DNA of 64,000 nucleotides. Source: Colwellia sp. (GTDB lineage: Bacteria > Pseudomonadota > Gammaproteobacteria > Enterobacterales > Alteromonadaceae). The translations under genes and the position numbers were made by a program. Where the stretch lies: positions 181,078 through 245,077 of the forward strand of contig NVWU01000004.1 in assembly GCA_002733765.1 (NCBI GenBank), given 5' to 3'. Position 1 is the stretch's first letter; each line of letters begins with the position of its first letter. Below, piece by piece: positions 2,725 to 28,395 of this stretch. The notes beneath the pieces are model-generated. The model did not search any database and was not told the DNA's origin. It saw only the letters and a program-made list of their open reading frames with translations.

Positions 2725-2800
2725 TGGCTCCCCAAACTGGGCTCGAACCAGTGACACATGGATTAACAGTCCATCGCTCTACCAACTGAGCTATTGGGGA
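2725..2800 (-). tRNA. tRNA-Asn (GTT)
   Basis: A 76-base cloverleaf with encoded CCA. On the minus strand it begins TCCCCAATAGCTCAG and ends GTTTGGGGAGCCA. The anticodon loop CTGTTAA gives GTT (Asn), the T-loop is GGTTCGAGCC, and the 7-bp acceptor stem TCCCCAA/TTGGGGA pairs. It is identical to the copies at 3022-3097 and 3217-3292. Confidence 0.97.
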
Positions 2801-2919
2801 ATAAATCTTTTTATTTTTGATTAGATTACATGGATTAACAGTAACTAATCTCCCTAGGTTTACAACTGACACTTAGAGAATAATTTTTCTATGAGCTTGT
2901 AATCACTCAACTTACAATG
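2801..2919 (-). repeat. tRNA-Asn spacer repeat, copy 1
   Basis: This 119-bp spacer is repeated, nearly identical and of equal length, at 3098-3216. Inside it (about 2829-2881) lie GGATTAACAGT, TACAACTGA and AGAGAAT in the same order and spacing as parts of the tRNA-Asn 5' half. The spacer therefore seems to contain an old, badly decayed tRNA-Asn copy. Confidence 0.6.
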
Positions 2920-2999
2920 TGGCTCCCCAAACTGGGCTCGGGAAACAATCAGCGACACATGCTATTATTAGAGAGTACAGTCCATCGCTCTACCGCTCT
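2920..2999 (-). pseudogene. Degenerate tRNA-Asn
   Basis: The 3' end is intact (TGGCTCCCCAAACTGGGCTCG on the + strand, the first 21 bases of the intact genes up to the T-loop). An altered, expanded segment follows, then ACAGTCCATCGCTCTACC, and the 5' acceptor strand is absent. It cannot fold as a tRNA and sits between two perfect copies. Confidence 0.75.
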
Positions 3000-3021
3000 T
3001 CATTTGTCGTCAAATAAAATA

Positions 3022-3097
3022 TGGCTCCCCAAACTGGGCTCGAACCAGTGACACATGGATTAACAGTCCATCGCTCTACCAACTGAGCTATTGGGGA
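3022..3097 (-). tRNA. tRNA-Asn (GTT)
   Basis: Second intact copy: 76 bases, encoded CCA, GTT anticodon, identical to the tRNA-Asn at 2725-2800. The 297-bp offset between the two, with the shared spacer, indicates tandem duplication. Confidence 0.97.
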
Positions 3098-3216
3098 ATA
3101 AATCTTTTCAATTTTGATTAGACTACATGAATTAACAGTAACTAATCTCCCTAGGTCTACAACTGACACTTAGAGAATGATTTTTCTATGAGCTTGTAAT
3201 CACTCAACTTACAATG
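3098..3216 (-). repeat. tRNA-Asn spacer repeat, copy 2
   Basis: This 119-bp spacer matches 2801-2919 with only a few substitutions. Together with the flanking tRNAs it defines a duplicated tRNA-plus-spacer unit. Confidence 0.7.
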
Positions 3217-3292
3217 TGGCTCCCCAAACTGGGCTCGAACCAGTGACACATGGATTAACAGTCCATCGCTCTACCAACTGAGCTATTGGGGA
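3217..3292 (-). tRNA. tRNA-Asn (GTT)
   Basis: First tRNA of the minus-strand operon and third identical intact copy (76 bases, encoded CCA, GTT anticodon). Its upstream promoter is at 3343-3371. A short remnant resembling a tRNA 5' half (GCCCCGTTAGCCCAGTTGG on the minus strand, about 3319-3340) lies between promoter and gene. Confidence 0.97.
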
Positions 3293-16956: not shown

Positions 16957-17058
16957 TTGGTACAACATAACTAAAGTAAAAGTGTAGATACCAAGAGAAG
17001 TTAACTCTCGAAATAAAAATTTCCATTATTAACCGTAATAAACAAGTTGGACTTAACC

Positions 17059-19554: not shown

Positions 19555-19578
19555 TTTTCTGTGTATACAGTGTGATAA

Positions 19579-19803
19579 GTTCCTAGCTTTAATAAATCTA
19601 AATATGACAAATTAGAACAGCAATGGAAAGAAAAATGGAGTAAAAGTACACATGTTCATCACATTATCCCTATAAATTTTAATGGCCGAAATAGTGCTAA
19701 AAATTTCATTCCATTAAAAGCTGAAAAACACGTCGGCAGTGATGGAGTTCATCCTCAATTTTGGGGACCGTTAAAAAAATTCTTAATGAATATACGTAAA
19801 TAA
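19579..19803 (+). pseudogene. Orphan C-terminal fragment of an HNH-nuclease toxin
   Basis: An open stretch of 74 codons without a start codon or ribosome site encodes a C-terminal nuclease-like tail. Visible motifs are VPSFNKSKYDKLEQQW, then THVHHIIPINFNGRNSAKN, FIPLKAEKHVG and VHPQFWGPLKKFL. The HHxxP...N...PL...EH pattern is that of HNH-type DNase domains at the C-terminus of polymorphic toxins. The rest of the toxin gene is missing. It begins 24 bases after the upstream stop codon. I read it as a leftover toxin tip; a real short gene is unlikely. Confidence 0.6.
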
Positions 19804-20196: not shown

Positions 20197-20244
20197 TGAC
20201 GTATTGACGTCATGATTGTTTGTTTTTTATATGACGTTGCGTCA
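20197..20244. promoter_or_regulatory. TGACG-repeat putative operator of the RHH-CHAD-ParA operon
   Basis: The TGACG pentamer or its complement occurs repeatedly: TGACG at 20197, the palindrome TGACGTCA at 20205-20212, and TGACG-TTG-CGTCA at 20232-20244. The cluster ends 22 bases before the start of a ribbon-helix-helix gene. Autorepression, or use as a centromere-like site by that protein, is inferred. No -10 was assigned. Confidence 0.5.
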
Positions 20245-20266
20245 CAAAATAGAATAAGGTTGTGCT

Positions 20267-20467
20267 ATGGCTAACGATAAAAATAAAGCTTCTAAGGCTT
20301 CAAAATCAACGAAAGAAAGTAAAGCAAATAAAAAAAACACTTCACTTAGATTGGATAACAAAACACTAAAAGCACTTAAAATTCATGCGATTGAAATTGA
20401 TTCAAGCGTACAAAAAATAATTGAACAACTTGTCCATAATTATTTAGATAAGGTGAAAAATAAGTAA
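20267..20467 (+). CDS. Ribbon-helix-helix DNA-binding protein (ParG/CopG-like)
   Basis: A 66-residue basic protein with a disordered Lys/Ser/Ala/Asn N-terminus (about 24 residues). A ribbon-helix-helix segment follows: NTSLRLDNKTLKALKIHAIE, then a second helix SSVQKIIEQLVHNYL. This order (flexible basic tail plus RHH) is that of ParG-type centromere-binding partners of small ParA ATPases, and of CopG/Arc-type repressors. AAGG lies eight bases upstream of ATG. The gene heads the operon (two bases to the CHAD gene) and the TGACG repeats lie just upstream. The DNA target is a prediction. Confidence 0.7.
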   Translation: MANDKNKASKASKSTKESKANKKNTSLRLDNKTLKALKIHAIEIDSSVQKIIEQLVHNYLDKVKNK

Positions 20468-20469
20468 CT

Positions 20470-21990
20470 ATGATGACATCAAACAATCAAAATTATTTTT
20501 ATTCAGGACCCGTTACCAGTAAAAAAATTGGAAAATCTTTAGGCAAGTTAATTGTAAAGATAGATAAAAGAGAAGAGCAAGTAGCATTTGAGTTACTCGA
20601 TTGTTTCAACCAATCTATCAGGAAAAAAGGTTGTGTATTATTACGATTGAACAACACACTAATGTTGTTATTACCATCAGGACAAATTATTACTCAAAAT
20701 TGTCCTGAACAATTAAGTTTTATTTCTTTGCTTGCTGATGGTGTTATAAAAAATGTGTTGTCTTATGTATCACCTCTTAGAAGTTTAATGGTGGTAAGTA
20801 AGGGCAGATGTAAACAATTTACCGCCTCTTTACTCGATAATGAGCAAAAAACACAGTCACGTGTACACTTATACACTTTCACATCTTCAACAATACCTAC
20901 CACATTTACTCTGGCATCATTAGTGTACTTACGTGGTTATTCAGGTGCTCATAAAAGCTTGTTACACAAGCTTGATGATATGGGTTTTCAAGCGATGAAT
21001 AACCCAAGTATAATTTATGAAAAATTAATTGCAGATTATGATATTTATGAAGCCAAGCCTAATATTATTATCGGTAATAATGCTACCGCGTATGATACCG
21101 CGAATGTCATTATTCGTGCCTATTTAAAGGTAGCCCAAATCAATAAATTTGGTATGATCGTAGATATAGATACAGAATTTTTGCACGACTATCGTGTATC
21201 GTTAAGAAAAATCCGTTCGGTGGTTAGTTTATTTAAAGGGGTTTATTCAGAAGCTCAAAGAACTACTTTGAAAACGTTGTTTTCAGATTTGATGGCACCC
21301 ACTGGTCGATTAAGAGATTTGGATGTTTATTTACTCGAACGTGAAATGTATTTTCAGTTATTACCAACTTCATTGCATGAAGGGCTTGAATATATGTTCA
21401 AACTGTTTGAAGCTGAACGTAATGATCAGCATAAGGCATTAATAAAATATTTTAAAAGTCCCTCATTTAAAAAACAAATGAGCACGGTAGAAAAATTATT
21501 TTTTGACGATAATCTTCCTAAAACTGGTTCACGTTCGGCAATGATTGCCTCCAAATATGCCACAAGCTTGATTTGGAAATGCTATCGAAAAGTCTGTAAA
21601 ATTGCTCGTTCTATTGACGAAAATACCCCCGATGAAGAAGTCCACGAATTACGAATTCAATGTAAAAAATTACGTTATTTAATTGAATTTTTCAGTACTC
21701 TTTTTGATAAAAAAGAGATAACAATTATTATTAAGTCACTTAAAGTCTTACAAAATACTTTAGGTTTGTTTAATGATTATTCAGTTCAACAAGATTCTCT
21801 TAAAGCGTTTATTGACGCACAAGCATTGGACGGCACAAAACAAGATAGAGCAATAGCCCAAAGTGTCGGCGCACTGATAACCGTATTACATCAACGGCAA
21901 TTAACCGAACGGGAAAAAGTTGCCTCCAAGTTTATGCATTTTGATAATGCAGACACACAAACTACATTCAAAACATTGTTTAAGCGCTAA
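20470..21990 (+). CDS. CHAD domain protein (polyphosphate-associated)
   Basis: CHAD domains are helical bundles with conserved basic residues that bind polyphosphate and can target proteins to polyphosphate granules. This 506-residue protein has the two CHAD helical signatures: HDYRVSLRKIRSVVSLF near residue 240 and VHELRIQCKKLRYLIEFF near residue 392, with GRLRDLDVYL between. The N-terminal ~210 residues are not a clear CYTH domain and I do not recognise them, although many relatives are CYTH-CHAD fusions. A separate CYTH gene lies two genes downstream. A second in-frame ATG at 20473 is possible. It is tightly linked to the RHH gene (2 bases) and to parA (9 bases). Confidence 0.85.
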   Translation: MMTSNNQNYFYSGPVTSKKIGKSLGKLIVKIDKREEQVAFELLDCFNQSIRKKGCVLLRLNNTLMLLLPSGQIITQNCPEQLSFISLLADGVIKNVLSYVSPLRSLMVVSKGRCKQFTASLLDNEQKTQSRVHLYTFTSSTIPTTFTLASLVYLRGYSGAHKSLLHKLDDMGFQAMNNPSIIYEKLIADYDIYEAKPNIIIGNNATAYDTANVIIRAYLKVAQINKFGMIVDIDTEFLHDYRVSLRKIRSVVSLFKGVYSEAQRTTLKTLFSDLMAPTGRLRDLDVYLLEREMYFQLLPTSLHEGLEYMFKLFEAERNDQHKALIKYFKSPSFKKQMSTVEKLFFDDNLPKTGSRSAMIASKYATSLIWKCYRKVCKIARSIDENTPDEEVHELRIQCKKLRYLIEFFSTLFDKKEITIIIKSLKVLQNTLGLFNDYSVQQDSLKAFIDAQALDGTKQDRAIAQSVGALITVLHQRQLTEREKVASKFMHFDNADTQTTFKTLFKR

Positions 21991-21999
21991 GGGTACCGT

Positions 22000-22743
22000 A
22001 TGAAAATTTTAGCTTGTTATAGTAATAAAGGCGGTGTTGGTAAAACAGCGACTGCGGTGAATTTGGCTCTTGCATTTGCACAAGCAGGATATAGAACACT
22101 GTTATGCGATTTAGATCCTCAAGGGGCATCTGGATATTATTTTCGTGTTAAACCTTCTAAAAAACTTACCAATGAAAAATTTTTTACAAATGTTAAACGT
22201 TTTACTTCGGCCATTCGAGGTAGCGATTATGATAACCTTGATATATTACCCGCTAATATGACCTTTCGTGATTTTGATGTGTTTTTGTCAAGCATGAAAA
22301 AGCCTCAATCACAATTAACTAAAGCATTAAAAAACGTTAATGAAGATTACGATATTATTATTTTGGACTGTCCCCCTAATATTTCTTCGTTGTCAGAAAA
22401 TATTTTTCGTGCGGCGGATCGTATTATTATCCCCGTCATTCCAACGACATTATCAGAGCGTACATTAGAACAGCTCATAAAGTTTTTTGATGAAAATAAA
22501 ATAGATAGCAAAAAAATGATGCCTTTTTTTTCTATGGTACAGCGACAAAAAAAAATGCATATCGAAACGATGGGGCGTTTAAAAGTAGTCTATCCTAAAA
22601 TGTTTCTAAACGAACCGATCCCTTTTTCAACCGACATAGAGTTAATGGGGGTTCATCGTGCACCGGTAGCAACATTTGCAAAATCACGTCCTGCAACCAG
22701 CGCTTATAATGCGCTATGGACTGAGTTAGTGGTCAGAATATAA
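22000..22743 (+). CDS. ParA/Soj-family partition ATPase
   Basis: A 247-residue ATPase of the ParA/MinD group. The deviant Walker A motif KGGVGKT (residues 10-16) includes the signature Lys, with DLDPQG (switch I) and IIILDCPPN (Walker B) after it. There is no N-terminal HTH, so it belongs to the small ParA type that pairs with an RHH or other adaptor. Such ATPases position plasmids, chromosomes, carboxysomes and other cargo on the nucleoid. No parB gene is nearby. Its neighbours are RHH, CHAD, CYTH and Nudix genes, suggesting polyphosphate-bound cargo (inference). Confidence 0.9.
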   Translation: MKILACYSNKGGVGKTATAVNLALAFAQAGYRTLLCDLDPQGASGYYFRVKPSKKLTNEKFFTNVKRFTSAIRGSDYDNLDILPANMTFRDFDVFLSSMKKPQSQLTKALKNVNEDYDIIILDCPPNISSLSENIFRAADRIIIPVIPTTLSERTLEQLIKFFDENKIDSKKMMPFFSMVQRQKKMHIETMGRLKVVYPKMFLNEPIPFSTDIELMGVHRAPVATFAKSRPATSAYNALWTELVVRI

Positions 22744-22755
22744 AGGTATTTGGGT

Positions 22756-23280
22756 ATGAATACATTACAAGATAGTTCAGCACAAAAAAATGCACCACAA
22801 GAAATTGAACGTAAATTTTTGGTTGCTCAACTGCCTAATTTAAGTGATGCCAAGCAGTCGACAATTCATCAAGGATATATAACGCATTCGGATGATTCTG
22901 TGGAAGTGCGTTTAAGGCAAAAAGAGAGTGATTTTTATTTGACGGTTAAGCAAGGTGCTGGATTAATTCGCACGGAAGTGGAAACAACAATTGTACTAGA
23001 GCAGTTCGTCACACTTTGGCCGTTAACCATAGGTTCACGGATAGAGAAGATACGTTGGACAGGTAATATCACCAATAATCTTTTTTATGAACTTGATATA
23101 TTTTCAGGTGAATTGGAATCACTGCAACTAGTGGAAGTTGAGTTTTCTTCAAGAGAATCTGCTGAAAAATTTATCATTCCAGCTTGGTTTGGTAAAGAAG
23201 TGACTGAGGATAAAAGGTTTAAAAATAAGTCATTGGCAATGAATAAGGTTGTTATTCATGAACTCTTATCTGAATTTTAA
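22756..23280 (+). CDS. CYTH domain protein (triphosphate tunnel metalloenzyme)
   Basis: CYTH enzymes hydrolyse or bind triphosphate groups (inorganic tripolyphosphate, thiamine triphosphate, nucleotides) inside an eight-strand tunnel. The N-terminal EIERK (residues 16-20) is the ExExK signature. The further strand motifs VEVRLRQK, DFYLTVKQG, RIEKIRW, YELDIFSG and LVEVEF supply the expected charged residues. At 174 residues this is a single CYTH domain. The frame opens at TTG 22750; I use ATG 22756, with AAAGG nine bases upstream. The gap to parA is 12 bases. The substrate is likely a short polyphosphate, but this is not proven. Confidence 0.9.
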   Translation: MNTLQDSSAQKNAPQEIERKFLVAQLPNLSDAKQSTIHQGYITHSDDSVEVRLRQKESDFYLTVKQGAGLIRTEVETTIVLEQFVTLWPLTIGSRIEKIRWTGNITNNLFYELDIFSGELESLQLVEVEFSSRESAEKFIIPAWFGKEVTEDKRFKNKSLAMNKVVIHELLSEF

Positions 23281-23294
23281 GTGGGGCTAAGTTA

Positions 23295-23672
23295 ATGACA
23301 GCAAAACAATATGGTGTTTTACCCTTTATAAACAAGTCGAAGAGCAAGAAAAAAGTGGTACTGATCAGTAGTTGTGAAAGTAAAAAGTGGATTGTACCCA
23401 AAGGTCATAAAATCGATAAGCTGAGCAAACAAGCTACGGCGTTGCAAGAAGCTTTTGAAGAAGCAGGTATTAAAGGCTATATAAAGCGTAAAAAACCGTT
23501 GGTTTTTAAAATTAAAAGTCATGGTAAAAAAGTAACACTGGTACTTTACTTTATGAAAGTTAAGGAGTTGTTATTGTTGTGGCCAGAAAAGAAAAAGCGA
23601 AAACGAAAAGTGGTAAAACTAAAAAAAGCAAAAAAAATGGTGGCGTGGCAAGAGCTGAGTGACTATTTATAG
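23295..23672 (+). CDS. Nudix hydrolase, DIPP-like
   Basis: A small (125-residue) Nudix protein. KWIVPKGH followed by QEAFEEAGIKG fits the Nudix box, with catalytic Glu at 51, 54 and 55 and Gly at 57. The usual Glu after G-x5 is Leu and the Arg before the first Glu is Gln. The WIVPKG start is typical of the diphosphoinositol-polyphosphate/dinucleoside-polyphosphate hydrolase group. A Lys/Arg-rich stretch (KKKRKRKVVKLKKAKK, near 95-110) inserted before the last helix could bind a polyanion. It lies 14 bases after the CYTH gene. Polyphosphate or Ap(n)A is a plausible substrate. Confidence 0.8.
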   Translation: MTAKQYGVLPFINKSKSKKKVVLISSCESKKWIVPKGHKIDKLSKQATALQEAFEEAGIKGYIKRKKPLVFKIKSHGKKVTLVLYFMKVKELLLLWPEKKKRKRKVVKLKKAKKMVAWQELSDYL

Positions 23673-23779
23673 GTTTAGCTGATTGTTTTGGTATTATTTA
23701 ATCTTTAGCTAAGTTAGAAAAATTAAAAAAAACTGAACAATATTAATAATAAATTTTAATCGATAATGGAGAATAAAAA

Positions 23780-24388
23780 ATGAGTTTATCAATTCAAACA
23801 GTTCGTGGTATAGGTCCGTCAGCAGCTACTATTCTTGCCGAGAACGGTATTAAAACGATTGGTGAACTTGCCGCTAAAACCCCTTTGCAACTCGCAACGA
23901 TTAAAACCTTTAGCGAAATTCGCGCTACACAAGTCATCAAAGATGCTAAGGCATTGATGCCTAGCAGTGTCGTAGCTAAACCTATTAAATTAGTAGCACC
24001 AGAAAAAATTGCTGAGGTTGTTGTTAATAAAACCGATAATACTGTTGACCAAAAAGTTGACAAGAAAGTTAGCAATAAGGCTGACAAGAAAGTGAGTAAG
24101 AAAGTCGACAAGAAAGTTAGTAAGAAGGCTGATAAGAAAGTTAGCAAGAAGTCTGATAAGAAAGTGAGCAAGAAGTCTGATAAGAAAGTGAGCAAGAAAG
24201 CTGATAAGAAAGTTAGCAAGAAGGCTGATAAGAAAGTTAGCAAGAAGGCTGATAAGAAAGTTAGCAGTAAGGCTGATAAGAAAGTTAGCAGTAAGGCTGG
24301 CAAGAAAGCTGACAAAAAAGCTGACAAAAAAGTTAGCAAAAAACTAAACAAAAAACTAAACAAAAAATCTAAGAATAAAATGAAATAG
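23780..24388 (+). CDS. Helix-hairpin-helix protein with long Lys-rich repeat tail (histone H1-like)
   Basis: This 202-residue protein has an N-terminal helix-hairpin-helix domain (VRGIGPSAATILAENGI, then TIGELAAKTPLQLATI; residues ~8-58), as in DNA-binding HhH/DUF4332-type modules. After a linker, about 110 residues consist of an 8-residue repeat, KKADKKVS and variants (KKSDKKVS, SKADKKVS). The tail is nearly all Lys with Ser, Ala, Val and Asp, resembling histone H1-like tails (AlgP, HctB). GGAG lies eight bases before ATG. It follows the Nudix gene by 107 bases, and the next element is a repeat. A DNA- and polyphosphate-binding scaffold role is inferred. Confidence 0.75.
   Translation: MSLSIQTVRGIGPSAATILAENGIKTIGELAAKTPLQLATIKTFSEIRATQVIKDAKALMPSSVVAKPIKLVAPEKIAEVVVNKTDNTVDQKVDKKVSNKADKKVSKKVDKKVSKKADKKVSKKSDKKVSKKSDKKVSKKADKKVSKKADKKVSKKADKKVSSKADKKVSSKAGKKADKKADKKVSKKLNKKLNKKSKNKMK
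24051..24345 (+). repeat. In-gene 24-bp tandem repeat (Lys-rich tail)
   Basis: About 11-12 imperfect 24-bp units (consensus AAGAAAGTTAGCAAGAAGGC plus TGAT) encode the KKVSKKAD tail. Third-position differences between units show that the protein repeat is being maintained. The array is prone to length change by slippage. It is coding and is not a CRISPR. Confidence 0.9.
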
Positions 24389-24423
24389 TTATTTCACAGG
24401 TTATAAGGTGGTAATTTATCTTG

Positions 24424-24629
24424 TATACCCATGCTATTGTAAGATGGAGCGAGAATGACCAGGCTGATAGGCGCAGGTCCATAGTTCCCAAACTAAAGCT
24501 AAGTACCTAGATCAATCAAGGTAAGACCTTGATTGATGAGAATAGTTTAAAATCAATAACGCAGCATTCGTCTTGTTTAATAGTTCTTTTGTAGTCCTGA
24601 AACTCGCATGTTGAGGTGGCATGGGTATA
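24424..24629 (-). mobile_element. MITE-like TATACCC repeat, copy B
   Basis: A 206-bp element bounded by perfect 11-bp terminal inverted repeats (TATACCCATGC at 24424-24434, GCATGGGTATA at 24619-24629), with imperfect extension to about 22 bp. It contains no ORF. The core, read on the minus strand (GCTGCGTTATTGATTTTAAA, then TCATCAATCAAGGTCTTACC), matches the copies near 2.5 and 62.3 kb. An internal perfect 12-bp palindrome is at 24511-24537. It fills most of the 24389-24720 gap between the convergent HhH and ppx genes. Confidence 0.8.
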
Positions 24630-24720
24630 ATAACTGCTTAACTATTATTAAGTTAACGCTTCGGTTTTTCTTATTCATTTGCATAGCAGTAATAATAGTA
24701 GTCACTAGAAAGAGCTGAGC

Positions 24721-26244
24721 CTAAGTAAAAGATAAATGATAACCGACTGCTTTCAGGTATTCTTGCTCTAACTCTAAATCTGCGATAATGATCGTATGCT
24801 CGGACAACCAATTAGCAGGAAATTGTAAGCTGATATCATTTTCATCGACGGTTAATGTTAATTCCGGCAGAAAATTTGGCTGGCGTTTTATATTTAATAA
24901 AGCGCTTAATCTTAATAACACCAGACACTGAAAAACTTCTGCTTGAGTAAATTGGCTAAATTTAGGTATCTCTTTTAGGTGAATTTTTTTTCGATAAAAG
25001 CGTGTCAGGGTAGCTAATAATGTTTGTTGCTCGGCGTTAAAACCGTGCATGTCAGCATGGTTTAATATATAAGCTGAGTGACGTTGTACCCCCCTAGAGT
25101 GAATGTGCAAACCCACTTCATGCAGCAATGCCGCCCACGACAAAAGTGGTTTGATTTTTTTATCATTCAATTTCCAAGGGTTTTTTACTTGTTTGTATAA
25201 TGCTAAGCTCGTTGTTAAAACCAAGTTGGCTTGGCAAGTATCAACGTCGTATCGAGTTGCTAAACTTTGCGCTGAACGTTCTCGTATGTCTGTATGCTGC
25301 AAGGAGGCTTCCATTTCATACATTACCCCTTCTCTTAATGCCGCACTCGTAAATGTCAGCTCTGCTATTTTTAATGTCCGAAATATCGCAATTAAAATGG
25401 CTAACCCTGCGGGGTAAACTTGTCTTCTGTCTTCTTTACATTCAGCGATAATAAGGTTATCTACCGACTTTGCCGCAATAGCCTCAGCCATTAGTTGTTC
25501 TAGGTGCGTTAATGTAATTGGTGTTACGTTACTTTGATCTTGTGGAATTATTTGACTAATACAGCCAATAGAGCCCGATGTACCTAAGCAATGTTGCCAT
25601 CCCAATTTAATAAACTTGTCTTCAATCAGTGCTAGTTCTTGTTGCGCTGCGGTAATCGCTTTATTAAATAGCGATTTTTTTATCAGCCCATCTTTAAAAA
25701 AACGCTGAGAGTAACTAACACAGCCCATATTTAAACTGCGTAACAGTAAGGGCGTAAATTTTTCCCCTATAATAAATTCCGTAGAGCCGCCACCGATATC
25801 GATAACCAAATTCTTATTCTCTAACGTGTTTGTGTGAGCAACACCTTGATATATAAGACGAGCTTCTTCTTGGCCAGAAATTATTTCAACAGGATATGAA
25901 AAAACTTTTTTTGCTTTTTGTACAAACGAGTGGGCATTTTTTGCTTTACGTAAGGTATAAGTCGCAACAATTCTAACCGAGCTAGGTTCAAAGCCGGTTA
26001 AACTTTCTTTTACTAGCTCTAATGACTCTATTCCTCTGGCAATAGCCTCATCAGATAGACAGTTGTCTTTTGTTAAGCCATCAGCTAACCGTACTTTTTG
26101 TTTCATTTTATGCAGGACTTGTACGGTTCCTGATATAACTCTAGCGACAACTAAATGAAAGCTGTTAGAACCAATATCTAAAACGGCAATTTTGGTTGAC
26201 TCTCTTAACTCAAGATCATTAAAGGCGGTTTTGATTTTGCTCAT
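24721..26244 (-). CDS. ppx: Exopolyphosphatase (Ppx/GppA family)
   Basis: Ppx removes terminal phosphates from polyphosphate; relatives (GppA) act on pppGpp. The 507 residues show the ASKHA-fold phosphate-binding motifs IAVLDIGSNSFHLVVAR at the N-terminus and NLVIDIGGGSTEFIIG near residue 145, the GxxREG-like ALREGVMYEME, and a C-terminal HD-like domain with LLHEVGLHIHSRGVQRHSAY. The start codon overlaps the ppk1 3' end by 26 bases, so ppk1-ppx form one minus-strand operon, as is common in gammaproteobacteria. Because ppk1 is adjacent I favour Ppx over GppA. Confidence 0.93.
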   Translation of the reverse strand: MSKIKTAFNDLELRESTKIAVLDIGSNSFHLVVARVISGTVQVLHKMKQKVRLADGLTKDNCLSDEAIARGIESLELVKESLTGFEPSSVRIVATYTLRKAKNAHSFVQKAKKVFSYPVEIISGQEEARLIYQGVAHTNTLENKNLVIDIGGGSTEFIIGEKFTPLLLRSLNMGCVSYSQRFFKDGLIKKSLFNKAITAAQQELALIEDKFIKLGWQHCLGTSGSIGCISQIIPQDQSNVTPITLTHLEQLMAEAIAAKSVDNLIIAECKEDRRQVYPAGLAILIAIFRTLKIAELTFTSAALREGVMYEMEASLQHTDIRERSAQSLATRYDVDTCQANLVLTTSLALYKQVKNPWKLNDKKIKPLLSWAALLHEVGLHIHSRGVQRHSAYILNHADMHGFNAEQQTLLATLTRFYRKKIHLKEIPKFSQFTQAEVFQCLVLLRLSALLNIKRQPNFLPELTLTVDENDISLQFPANWLSEHTIIIADLELEQEYLKAVGYHLSFT

Positions 26245-28330
26245 AGTTAGCTTTTTCCAAGTGTTTTAAATAGTGATATGTTTCATTTTGCGAACGTAGG
26301 TTTTTTCTATTGCCACGTTTAACATAGCTATTTACTTGGTCTTTGTCGATAACTCTAGCTTTTAAAGTATCTTTGAAGTGAATTTCTAGAAGATTTGTTA
26401 TTATTTTAATCAGCTTTTGGTCGTAAATAGGACAAGACACTTCAATTCGATCTTCCATATTACGTTTCATCCAGTCGGCGGAAGAAATATAAACTTTTTT
26501 ATCACCATTATTGTAAAAACACATGACTCTAGAATGTTCAAGAAAACGATCAACAACACTGATGATGCTGATGTTATCACTCAACCCTTTTATTTTAGGG
26601 CGTAGCGAACACATGCCTCTAATTATACCGCGTATTATTACCCCAGACTGACTTGCTTGGTATAATTTTTCGATGATATCATGATCAACTAAGTTATTGA
26701 CCTTGAATAGAATATCAGCTTTATTTCCGGATTGAGCATGAGTGATTTCGTTATCGATCAGCGCCAATATTGACGACTTCGAGTTTAGCGGAGAGACTAA
26801 TAAATGTTCAAATTTTTGTTGGCGATAAGGGAGCTGGATTAAGTCGAATATACTCAGTACTTCTTTGGTGATATTTTGGTCTTTAGTAAATAAGCTGAAG
26901 TCGGTGTAAATTTTTGCAGTACTTTCGTGAAAGTTACCTGTGCCTATATGAGCATAGTTGACCATTTTGGATTTTTCTTCACGGCTAACAACGAAAATTT
27001 TAGTATGTATTTTAAATGAAGGGTTACCAAAAACTACTCGAATACCTGCGTCAGTCATCGTTCTAGCCCATTCGATATTAGCTTCTTCATCAAATCTAGC
27101 TCTTAGCTCCATCACCACGGTAACCATTTTTCCATTATCTACCGCGTCAATGAGTGAACTAACTACTCTAGAATTTTTAGCAATGCGATATAAGGTAATA
27201 CGAATATGCTTTACATGAGGGTCGAACGCCGCTTGGCGAACAAACTCCGTAAAATGTAAAAACCGATGGTATGGGTAGTTTAGCAGAATATCTTGTTGTT
27301 GAATCGCTTCAAATACGGTGTTGTAGGCAGCAAATTGTTGATTGGTTAATGCCTCTATTGGTTTGTTTTCTAAGTTGCTGCGACCAATATTAGGAAATTT
27401 AATAAAATCTTTTACGTTCCGTACTTTGCCAGCCGCTACTAGGTTATCGTAAGAAGAATGTTTTAAATGGCGTTTTAAGCTTTTTACCATTTCTTCAGGC
27501 ATATTACCGTCGTATATAACGCGCACTGGCTCGGCGATAAGACGCTGTTTCATGCTGTCTGACATTTTTTCAACGTAACTTTCTGCAATATCTTCGTTGA
27601 TTGAGTATTCTGAATCACGGGTCATTTTAAATGAGTGGGCCTCTATAGAGTCAAATTTAACAAAGCCTAGAAAAATATCCTCAATAAAGAGTTGGATGAC
27701 ATCTTCAAGTAAAATTATCTTCTTATATTTTTTTTCTTTTGATAAAGGTGGCAAGATGATAAACCTAGACATTTTATCAGTGGGTATTTCTATAGTGGCA
27801 TATTTAGTCTGTTTGTCGTCGCGATGAATCGCTAAATAGTAATAGGTTGCCGAGTCATTTAAGCGAGCAACTAGGTTGACTTTTTTCTCAATTAAAATAG
27901 GGGTTATATGACGCAAAACCTTGTTTTGAAAAAAATTTTTCAACCAATGAATTTGATCATCATTGACCTGATGGTGGTCTATTAATTGTATATTGTGTTG
28001 AGCAAGTTGATTAACCAATTTTTGATAAATAATGTCAAATTCATCAGTGAGTTTGATTATTTTTTGCTGTATCTGAGTCATTAAAAGTTGATTTTTTTCT
28101 GCTGCTTCTTGCTCATCATTATTCATTAGAATAATGATTTTTCGTCGCACATCAGCCACTCTAACGCGATAAAATTCATCCATATTATTAGAGTAGATGC
28201 CAAGAAAGCGAAACCGCTCGATAATGGGGTTATTTTCGTCAGCGGCTTCTTGCAAAACTCGTTCATTGAAGGCGAGCCAACTAAGCTCTTTAGGAAAAAA
28301 TCTTTGGGTAACTGTTTTATTTTTATTCAT
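26219..28330 (-). CDS. ppk1: Polyphosphate kinase 1
   Basis: PPK1 makes polyphosphate from ATP through a phosphohistidine intermediate. The 703 residues begin with FFPKELSWLAFNERVLQEA. Catalytic-core motifs are IHTKIFVV, YAHIGTGNFHESTAKIYTD (containing the phosphorylated-His region) and the second phospholipase-D-like half (FLEHSRVMCF, VYISSADWMKRNMEDRIEV). The length is normal. A Pho box and -10 lie just upstream (28362-28395). It is the first gene of the ppk1-ppx operon and faces the CHAD/ParA/CYTH/Nudix operon across a repeat element. Confidence 0.97.
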   Translation of the reverse strand: MNKNKTVTQRFFPKELSWLAFNERVLQEAADENNPIIERFRFLGIYSNNMDEFYRVRVADVRRKIIILMNNDEQEAAEKNQLLMTQIQQKIIKLTDEFDIIYQKLVNQLAQHNIQLIDHHQVNDDQIHWLKNFFQNKVLRHITPILIEKKVNLVARLNDSATYYYLAIHRDDKQTKYATIEIPTDKMSRFIILPPLSKEKKYKKIILLEDVIQLFIEDIFLGFVKFDSIEAHSFKMTRDSEYSINEDIAESYVEKMSDSMKQRLIAEPVRVIYDGNMPEEMVKSLKRHLKHSSYDNLVAAGKVRNVKDFIKFPNIGRSNLENKPIEALTNQQFAAYNTVFEAIQQQDILLNYPYHRFLHFTEFVRQAAFDPHVKHIRITLYRIAKNSRVVSSLIDAVDNGKMVTVVMELRARFDEEANIEWARTMTDAGIRVVFGNPSFKIHTKIFVVSREEKSKMVNYAHIGTGNFHESTAKIYTDFSLFTKDQNITKEVLSIFDLIQLPYRQQKFEHLLVSPLNSKSSILALIDNEITHAQSGNKADILFKVNNLVDHDIIEKLYQASQSGVIIRGIIRGMCSLRPKIKGLSDNISIISVVDRFLEHSRVMCFYNNGDKKVYISSADWMKRNMEDRIEVSCPIYDQKLIKIITNLLEIHFKDTLKARVIDKDQVNSYVKRGNRKNLRSQNETYHYLKHLEKANYEQNQNRL

Positions 28331-28361
28331 GACCGCTTACGATGAATGCTTATATATGACC

Positions 28362-28395
28362 ATCATAGTTTATTTAAATGACTGTTTTATTACAG
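28362..28395 (-). promoter_or_regulatory. Pho box and -10 element of ppk1-ppx
   Basis: On the minus strand CTGTAATAAAACAGTCAT (28395-28378) matches the PhoB consensus at 16 of 18 positions. After 10 bases comes TATGAT (28367-28362), a good -10. In PhoB-activated promoters the box replaces the -35 at this spacing. It ends 31 bases before the ppk1 ATG. Induction by phosphate starvation is predicted. The rest of the 28331-28546 gap shows only a weak hairpin. Confidence 0.7.

Follow-up and report, generated by a model that had tools for sequence, protein, structure and literature searches.

What might a ParA-type ATPase do in an operon whose other products point to polyphosphate (polyP)? The question is raised by a 64,000-nucleotide stretch of Colwellia sp. 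DNA (assembly GCA_002733765.1, contig NVWU01000004.1, positions 181,078 to 245,077; this whole stretch is referred to as the window), in which genes for a ribbon-helix-helix (RHH) protein, a CHAD protein, a ParA ATPase, a CYTH protein and a Nudix protein follow one another on the plus strand. A sequence-only reading of the window had described these five genes with gaps of 2, 9, 12 and 14 bases and a ppx-ppk1 pair facing them, and this layout was exact on the open reading frames (Table 1). We found that CHAD and ParA form a real and widespread module, and we consider it probable, with moderate confidence, that the operon uses ParA to position or partition a cargo, which would be the polyP granule.

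Conservation of the CHAD-ParA pair

A genome collection was scanned with a ParA alignment, and 46 loci (L045-L090) were obtained at 42-69% identity; the scan needed exact short peptide patterns, which makes these loci a sample and no census, and 34 more loci at 37% identity or less were left out as generic ParA. In 43 of the 46, the gene directly upstream of ParA was CHAD, in the same orientation. Carriers included Roseivivax, Ruegeria, Nitrosomonas, Alcaligenaceae, Desulfobacter, Oceanospirillum, Pontiella (Kiritimatiellota) and Chloroflexi, and the pair was spread over Proteobacteria, Desulfobacterota, Chloroflexi and Kiritimatiellota.

As an independent test, we looked for the N-terminal domain of the CHAD protein in 398 genomes from the phylum of the window (Pseudomonadota). 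Only seven genomes matched, namely the window genome and six others, and ParA lay directly behind the CHAD gene in all six. The treatment of CHAD and ParA as one unit in the sequence-only reading was supported. When the ParA profile was run on the same 398 genomes, 69 places were found at E 1e-40 or better (one in the window, six linked to CHAD and 62 remaining). No CHAD gene was present at these 62 sister loci within the flanks requested, some 5 kb on the upstream and 4 kb on the downstream side, which are shorter at contig ends (at least 1.7 kb upstream at 61 of the 62, less than 1.7 kb downstream at ten). On a tree built from 116 ParA sequences, five changes were needed for CHAD linkage, compared with a mean of 38 after shuffling (none of 500 shuffles was as low); this tree is a quick build in which long branches are flagged.

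The full RHH-CHAD-ParA-CYTH-Nudix order was also found at L144 (genome G388; same phylum, another class) and on four Paracoccus plasmid stretches, where the RHH gene is annotated as hypothetical; one stretch, L290, has one extra small annotated gene after ParA. A second CYTH gene was seen after Nudix on Paracoccus marcusii plasmids (L291 9178-9675, L294 7178-7675). The expectation that gene order would be kept in relatives held for such distant bacteria and failed for close ones, which are almost without the locus. Full-length CHAD is rare in the order: seven of 247 genomes matched at all, most of the protein was recovered only in the window genome and two others, and those two (of 246) belong to one other genus. 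A phage origin was rejected, the best match in a pattern-limited scan of viral_contigs being 35%. No described system of this composition, and no description of the module, was found in the literature searched, which mostly excludes subscription papers and preprints; the corresponding statement of the sequence-only reading stands within that range.

The CHAD protein and the proposed positioning of polyphosphate granules

According to the structural model, the CHAD protein is composed of an N domain with the tunnel fold of triphosphate tunnel metalloenzymes (TTM; residues about 3-190) and a CHAD domain (residues 193-506) with the fold of the solved polyP-binding type. The ExExK motif is absent from the N domain, none of 23 rows having E.E.K in the first 60 residues, and the protein gave no CYTH match in Pfam. 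Five of the six polyP-contact positions named in the available part of the CtCHAD description are basic in the window protein, and the remaining one, R385, corresponds to W369. The protein is predicted to bind polyP granules and to serve as their adaptor. CHAD phosins and TTM-CHAD proteins (E. coli ygiF, R. eutropha CHAD, CtCHAD) have the polyP-binding CHAD fold and a basic surface in common with it, and ygiF (5a60) also has the same TTM-CHAD domain order; the window protein differs from them in the N domain without ExExK and in the coupling of its gene to ParA. A ParA partner of known CHAD proteins is not reported in the portions of the literature text available, to which the gene map of PMC6537752 (Fig. 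1B) does not belong.

Given its conservation with a likely polyP-coat protein, ParA is best read as part of a cargo system for polyP granules. As set out in the available part of PMC10241942, ParA-type ATPases place their cargo by attaching to the nucleoid, from which a partner on the cargo releases them. In the operon, the CHAD protein would coat the granule via its basic CHAD domain and, as a whole or through its tunnel-fold N domain, would act as the cargo-side partner of ParA. ParA-ATP would bind the nucleoid non-specifically, contact with granule-bound CHAD would lead to ATP hydrolysis and release, and the granules would follow the resulting ParA gradients, being spaced out and shared at division. 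The CYTH protein as a tripolyphosphatase, with or without the DDP1-like Nudix protein, would clear short chains at the granule. The RHH protein would bind TGACGTCA before its own gene and set operon output, presumably by repression, and polyP could titrate it off the DNA via its basic tail. What the computation itself shows is the conserved CHAD-ParA pair, a predicted CHAD fold that keeps residues for polyP contact, the families of the enzymes and the linkage of RHH to its operator.

Among known systems, McdAB carboxysome positioning (available parts of PMC10241942 and PMC13052382) likewise pairs a ParA-type ATPase with the product of a linked gene that sits on the cargo, and a similar nucleoid ratchet is predicted here. 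The operon departs from McdAB in its predicted cargo, polyP, and in its partner, a folded TTM-CHAD protein; likely trimming enzymes and an RHH regulator are added. Spacing of polyP granules is a regulated trait in Pseudomonas aeruginosa, where it involves AlgP (PMC9239181, in the part available). AlgP and the PhaH, PhaF and PhaM proteins of polyhydroxybutyrate (PHB) granules have granule-to-nucleoid organisation in common with the proposal; unlike the ParA operon, they are described in the accessible text as single DNA-binding tethers. According to the available portion of a 2025 review (PMC13052382), the proteins that position polyP granules in Caulobacter are still to be identified, and the review leaves open whether localisation of PHB and polyP granules needs energy or ATP. 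The operon offers an ATPase, an adaptor and named carriers (Nitrosomonas, Ruegeria, Paracoccus), and the positioning question is therefore directly testable. ParA cargo systems are already known; the polyP granule as cargo would be new.

Several observations weigh against the granule-positioning reading, as do the limits given above for the ParA scan, the sister-locus flanks and the tree. The contact between CHAD and ParA and the binding of DNA by ParA are steps that we infer, and the N-terminus of the CHAD protein appears by eye unlike the positively charged, disordered N-terminus described for known ParA cargo partners in the available part of PMC10241942. ParA was present and CHAD absent at L079, L089 and L090, and the CHAD-linked ParAs form more than one clade on the quick tree. 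A related CHAD gene of 28% identity on a Thiodictyon plasmid has no adjoining ParA, and two Photobacterium plasmid matches were mostly to the CHAD part. The CHAD match in genome G017 (L013) ends at the contig end and the ParA fragment lies on another contig, so that no adjacency is visible there. None of 13 genomes from the genus of the window had CHAD, a set without any positive, the same query finding its own genome and two others order-wide. A basic tail is carried by the RHH protein, which went undetected in 25 of the 43 CHAD-ParA loci. Finally, ppk1 or ppx lay beside only four of the 46 loci (L070, L075, L085 and L086) as compared to none of the 62 sister loci (Fisher p 0.03, with shorter flanks in the controls), and ppk1-ppx found no support as a general partner of the operon.

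Other proteins of the operon and rival readings

The deviant Walker A motif KGGxxKT/S was found in ParA, with K10 and K15 present in all 51 CHAD-linked and all 65 other ParA rows. R49 was present in 51 of 51 CHAD-linked ParAs versus eight of 65 others, and is one of several residues that most sisters lack. The sister ParAs (L147-L208) form a subfamily related to the CHAD-linked one, often with MKxxAxYNxKGGVGKT, and are orphan ParAs; no common neighbour was seen by eye at the 14 of the 62 loci inspected. ParA might instead serve granule formation as a regulatory or an assembly ATPase, acting through CHAD on nucleation, size or enzyme loading, with no movement of granules. The matches of ParA to BcsQ-type and other non-partition P-loop families, all under cut-offs, would suit such a role, and the likely trimming enzymes of the operon fit granule turnover equally well. 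However, the best NCBIfam match was the partition ATPase NF041546 (93.6 bits, not reaching its cut-off of 180), and the PDB matches were chains of the ParA/Soj type, of which two carry the name cobyrinic acid synthase. The basic positions K184 and R220 are also kept, a role of which in DNA binding is a guess. We regard a ParA confined to regulation or assembly as unlikely.

For the CYTH protein, the sole PDB matches at E 0.1 or better were 3typ (1.3e-43) and 2fbl (1.5e-43), the latter named NE1496. The CHAD-ParA locus of N. europaea (L061) has a CYTH gene encoding 150 residues identical to the 2fbl/NE1496 sequence, and NE1496 is the third gene of a CHAD-ParA-CYTH locus. We take NE1496 to be NeuTTM; its QGY tyrosine and TLK lysine are 24 residues apart, as are Tyr-28 and Lys-52 of NeuTTM. 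NeuTTM of N. europaea was reported to be a specific tripolyphosphatase with a Tyr28/Lys52 dyad, and the available part of that report mentions no link to ParA or CHAD (PMC3440374). The window CYTH protein keeps ExExK (EIERK), QGY and TxK (TVK), that is, both motif and dyad, and is predicted to be a tripolyphosphatase of the NE1496 kind. NeuTTM-type enzymes hereby gain a genomic setting.

The Nudix protein was nearest to yeast DDP1 and human DIPP1 (phmmer against PDB, best E 4.9e-9); this match supports the family call, the Pfam match being under its curated cut-off. The canonical Nudix box is GX5EX7REUXEEXGU. By eye, the window box departs from it, with the first Glu replaced by Leu and the Arg by Gln; the Glu of RE and both Glu of EE are kept. 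A polyphosphatase activity of this protein is, given the departure, a guess. DDP1 itself hydrolyses polyP, as stated in the available part of PMC8064635. The earlier assignment of CYTH and Nudix as likely chain-trimming enzymes was supported.

These two enzymes, together with the ppk1 or ppx genes beside four loci and the pst-phoU-phoB genes near the operon on one Paracoccus plasmid, would also be compatible with a co-regulated polyP turnover operon in which ParA is present by shared transcription and acts elsewhere. We judge this improbable: the CHAD-ParA pair crosses phyla and is kept without the trimming enzymes, only 19 of the 43 loci having a same-strand CYTH gene and two having a Nudix gene. 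Nudix also follows ParA in Pontiella (L056) and Oceanospirillum (L080).

The RHH protein consists of a lysine-rich N-terminal tail and the ribbon-helix-helix. Its core is kept around KKNTSLRL..KTLKALK.RAIEEDTSVQKIIE in 18 listed loci (one organism twice), and the basic tail is usual, with a net charge of 0 to +6 in ten sequences; the protein is optional in the operon. The sequence TGACGTCA was found upstream in 15 of the 17 loci with a clear RHH, in one of three with a weak RHH match (L076, L066 and L061, L076 being part of the profile that found it) and in none of 25 without RHH, although four of the last group (L069, L081, L082, L083) have short upstream flanks of 122 to 332 bases. The resulting Fisher p of 1.4e-9 overstates the linkage because the loci are related. 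One of the two exceptions, L049, does have TGACGTCA before RHH, a site that the count missed owing to a CHAD start placed too far upstream. L071 has one-mismatch sites only, and at L142 TGACGTCA lies 17 bases before CHAD and RHH was not found; both of these loci count against the linkage. Held-out loci had TGACGTCA before RHH (L144, L290, L291, L293, L294) or near RHH-like frames (L295, L296), the five Paracoccus and similar plasmids being close kin and therefore not independent. TGACATCA stands directly before TGACGTCA in L049, L050, L064, L068, L291 and L294.

The linkage of RHH to TGACGTCA makes RHH most likely the regulator of its own operon, with repression predicted. That RHH is optional and has its site close to the promoter favours autoregulation and argues against an obligatory role as the partner of ParA. 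A chromosomal parS-like array for RHH was ruled out by the 17 scattered copies of TGACGTCA in the 4.05 Mb of the own genome against 27 for a reversed control pattern. Likewise, no centromere-site array of the ParG/omega type was seen, exact sites being few or single (one on each of the plasmid stretches L290, L291, L293 and L294, two on L295) and degenerate arrays not having been sought. As to kinship of RHH with ParG, a phmmer search against PDB gave weak PutA and E73 matches only (best E 0.028). That RHH and ParA form a plasmid-type partition cassette segregating DNA, with CHAD as a passenger or a polyP-DNA link, is highly improbable: the full operon does occur on Paracoccus plasmids, and an RHH protein with a small ParA presumably resembles ParFG-type cassettes, but RHH went undetected at many loci that keep CHAD, and the single TGACGTCA sites form no iteron array.

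Neighbouring genes and history of the locus

The coordinates are collected in Table 1. Position 20197, at which the sequence-only reading starts the locus, is not the RHH start codon (20267); it is the first base of a TGACG-rich operator stretch with several TGACG elements. Before this operator, window positions 19557-19800 resemble, on visual inspection, what is left of an HNH-type domain (HHIIP-like).

Table 1. Coordinates of the operon and its neighbours in the window, and of the GAK gene sets at other loci
Feature	Position	Strand	Details
Operator region	20197..20244	.	TGACG 20197-20201; palindrome TGACGTCA 20205-20212; TGACGTTGCGTCA 20232-20244
RHH gene, 66 aa	20267..20467	+	Open reading frame; Pfam RHH_1 E 3.5e-4, 20.8 bits (cut-off 20.5)
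CHAD gene, 506 aa	20470..21990	+	Pfam CHAD E 3.7e-50, residues 214-444 only
ParA gene, 247 aa	22000..22743	+	Pfam AAA_31 E 1.1e-40; Walker A KGGVGKTA
CYTH gene	22756..23280	+	From ATG (possible TTG start at 22750); Pfam CYTH E 5.6e-6
Nudix gene, 125 aa	23295..23672	+	Pfam NUDIX E 0.0025, under curated cut-off
HhH/Lys gene, 202 aa	23780..24388	+	HhH_5 domain and K-rich repeat tail; Pfam HHH_5 E 5.9e-9
ppx/gppA exopolyphosphatase gene	24721..26244	-	Pfam Ppx-GppA
ppk1 polyphosphate kinase gene	26219..28330	-	Four PPK1 domains (Pfam)
GAK set, L009	2189-7974		
GAK set, L013	2728-8347		
GAK set, L143	3381-9841		
GAK set, L146	3-5925		

The helix-hairpin-helix (HhH)/Lys gene follows Nudix after a gap of 107 bases. 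Its product has an HhH like the phasin PhaH, to which it gave a weak match (E 0.0089), and a K-rich tail like AlgP. Among the loci examined only the window's own gave a match, and none was found in 18 other genomes; the gene is not conserved with the operon, and its inclusion in the system by the sequence-only reading was rejected (one of 19 genomes).

The coding regions of ppx and ppk1 overlap, and both genes are convergent to the operon. Among 12 genomes of the same genus ppk1 was found in one, at another place and with no CHAD in the 19.9 kb around it. The window genome shares the sigma54-cydAB side (about 28549 onwards) with three relatives. A clean empty site was rejected; the left insertion edge could not be fixed because the homologue of the gene at 17047 sits about 0.63 Mb away in G257. 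The rarity of ppk1 in the genus and the shared sigma54-cydAB side indicate that both gene groups, the CHAD-ParA operon and ppk1-ppx, are accessory in the window genome, and the two may have arrived together. In one relative the homologue of the sigma54 regulator beside cydAB is interrupted by stop codons (G255:C2 182483-183776).

Further genes were met near the pair elsewhere. A histidine-phosphatase gene precedes CHAD at L086, with similar frames at L084 and L087, and a SixA-like gene follows ParA at L145. The GAK set, consisting of a PhoU-APH fusion, an ATP-grasp protein (TIGR04356), an HprK-related kinase B (TIGR04355), a histidine phosphatase and a metallophosphatase, adjoins CHAD-ParA in three genomes (L009, L143, L146) and lies beside the contig-cut CHAD of L013. 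Curated matches identified the set at L009 and the kinase at L013, the others being recognised by profiles built here. TIGR04355 had no match in the window genome, and a literature search on GAK returned nothing useful. This proximity suggests that the unassigned GAK set works with polyP or phosphate.

A wider form of the granule-positioning reading is conceivable, and we put it forward only tentatively. The operon would be a kit, mobile by horizontal transfer, through which the polyP granule becomes a genuinely partitioned organelle, with an ATP-driven ParA-CHAD ratchet, trimming enzymes at the surface and an RHH repressor titrated by polyP via its Lys tail, such that the partition machinery would be produced only in the presence of polyP. 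It would have arrived with ppk1-ppx in the window genome and would dock onto the GAK set elsewhere; if so, the GAK set would also belong to polyP biology. Apart from the operon, three tRNA-Asn genes (anticodon gtt) were found clustered on the minus strand at window positions 2725-3292.

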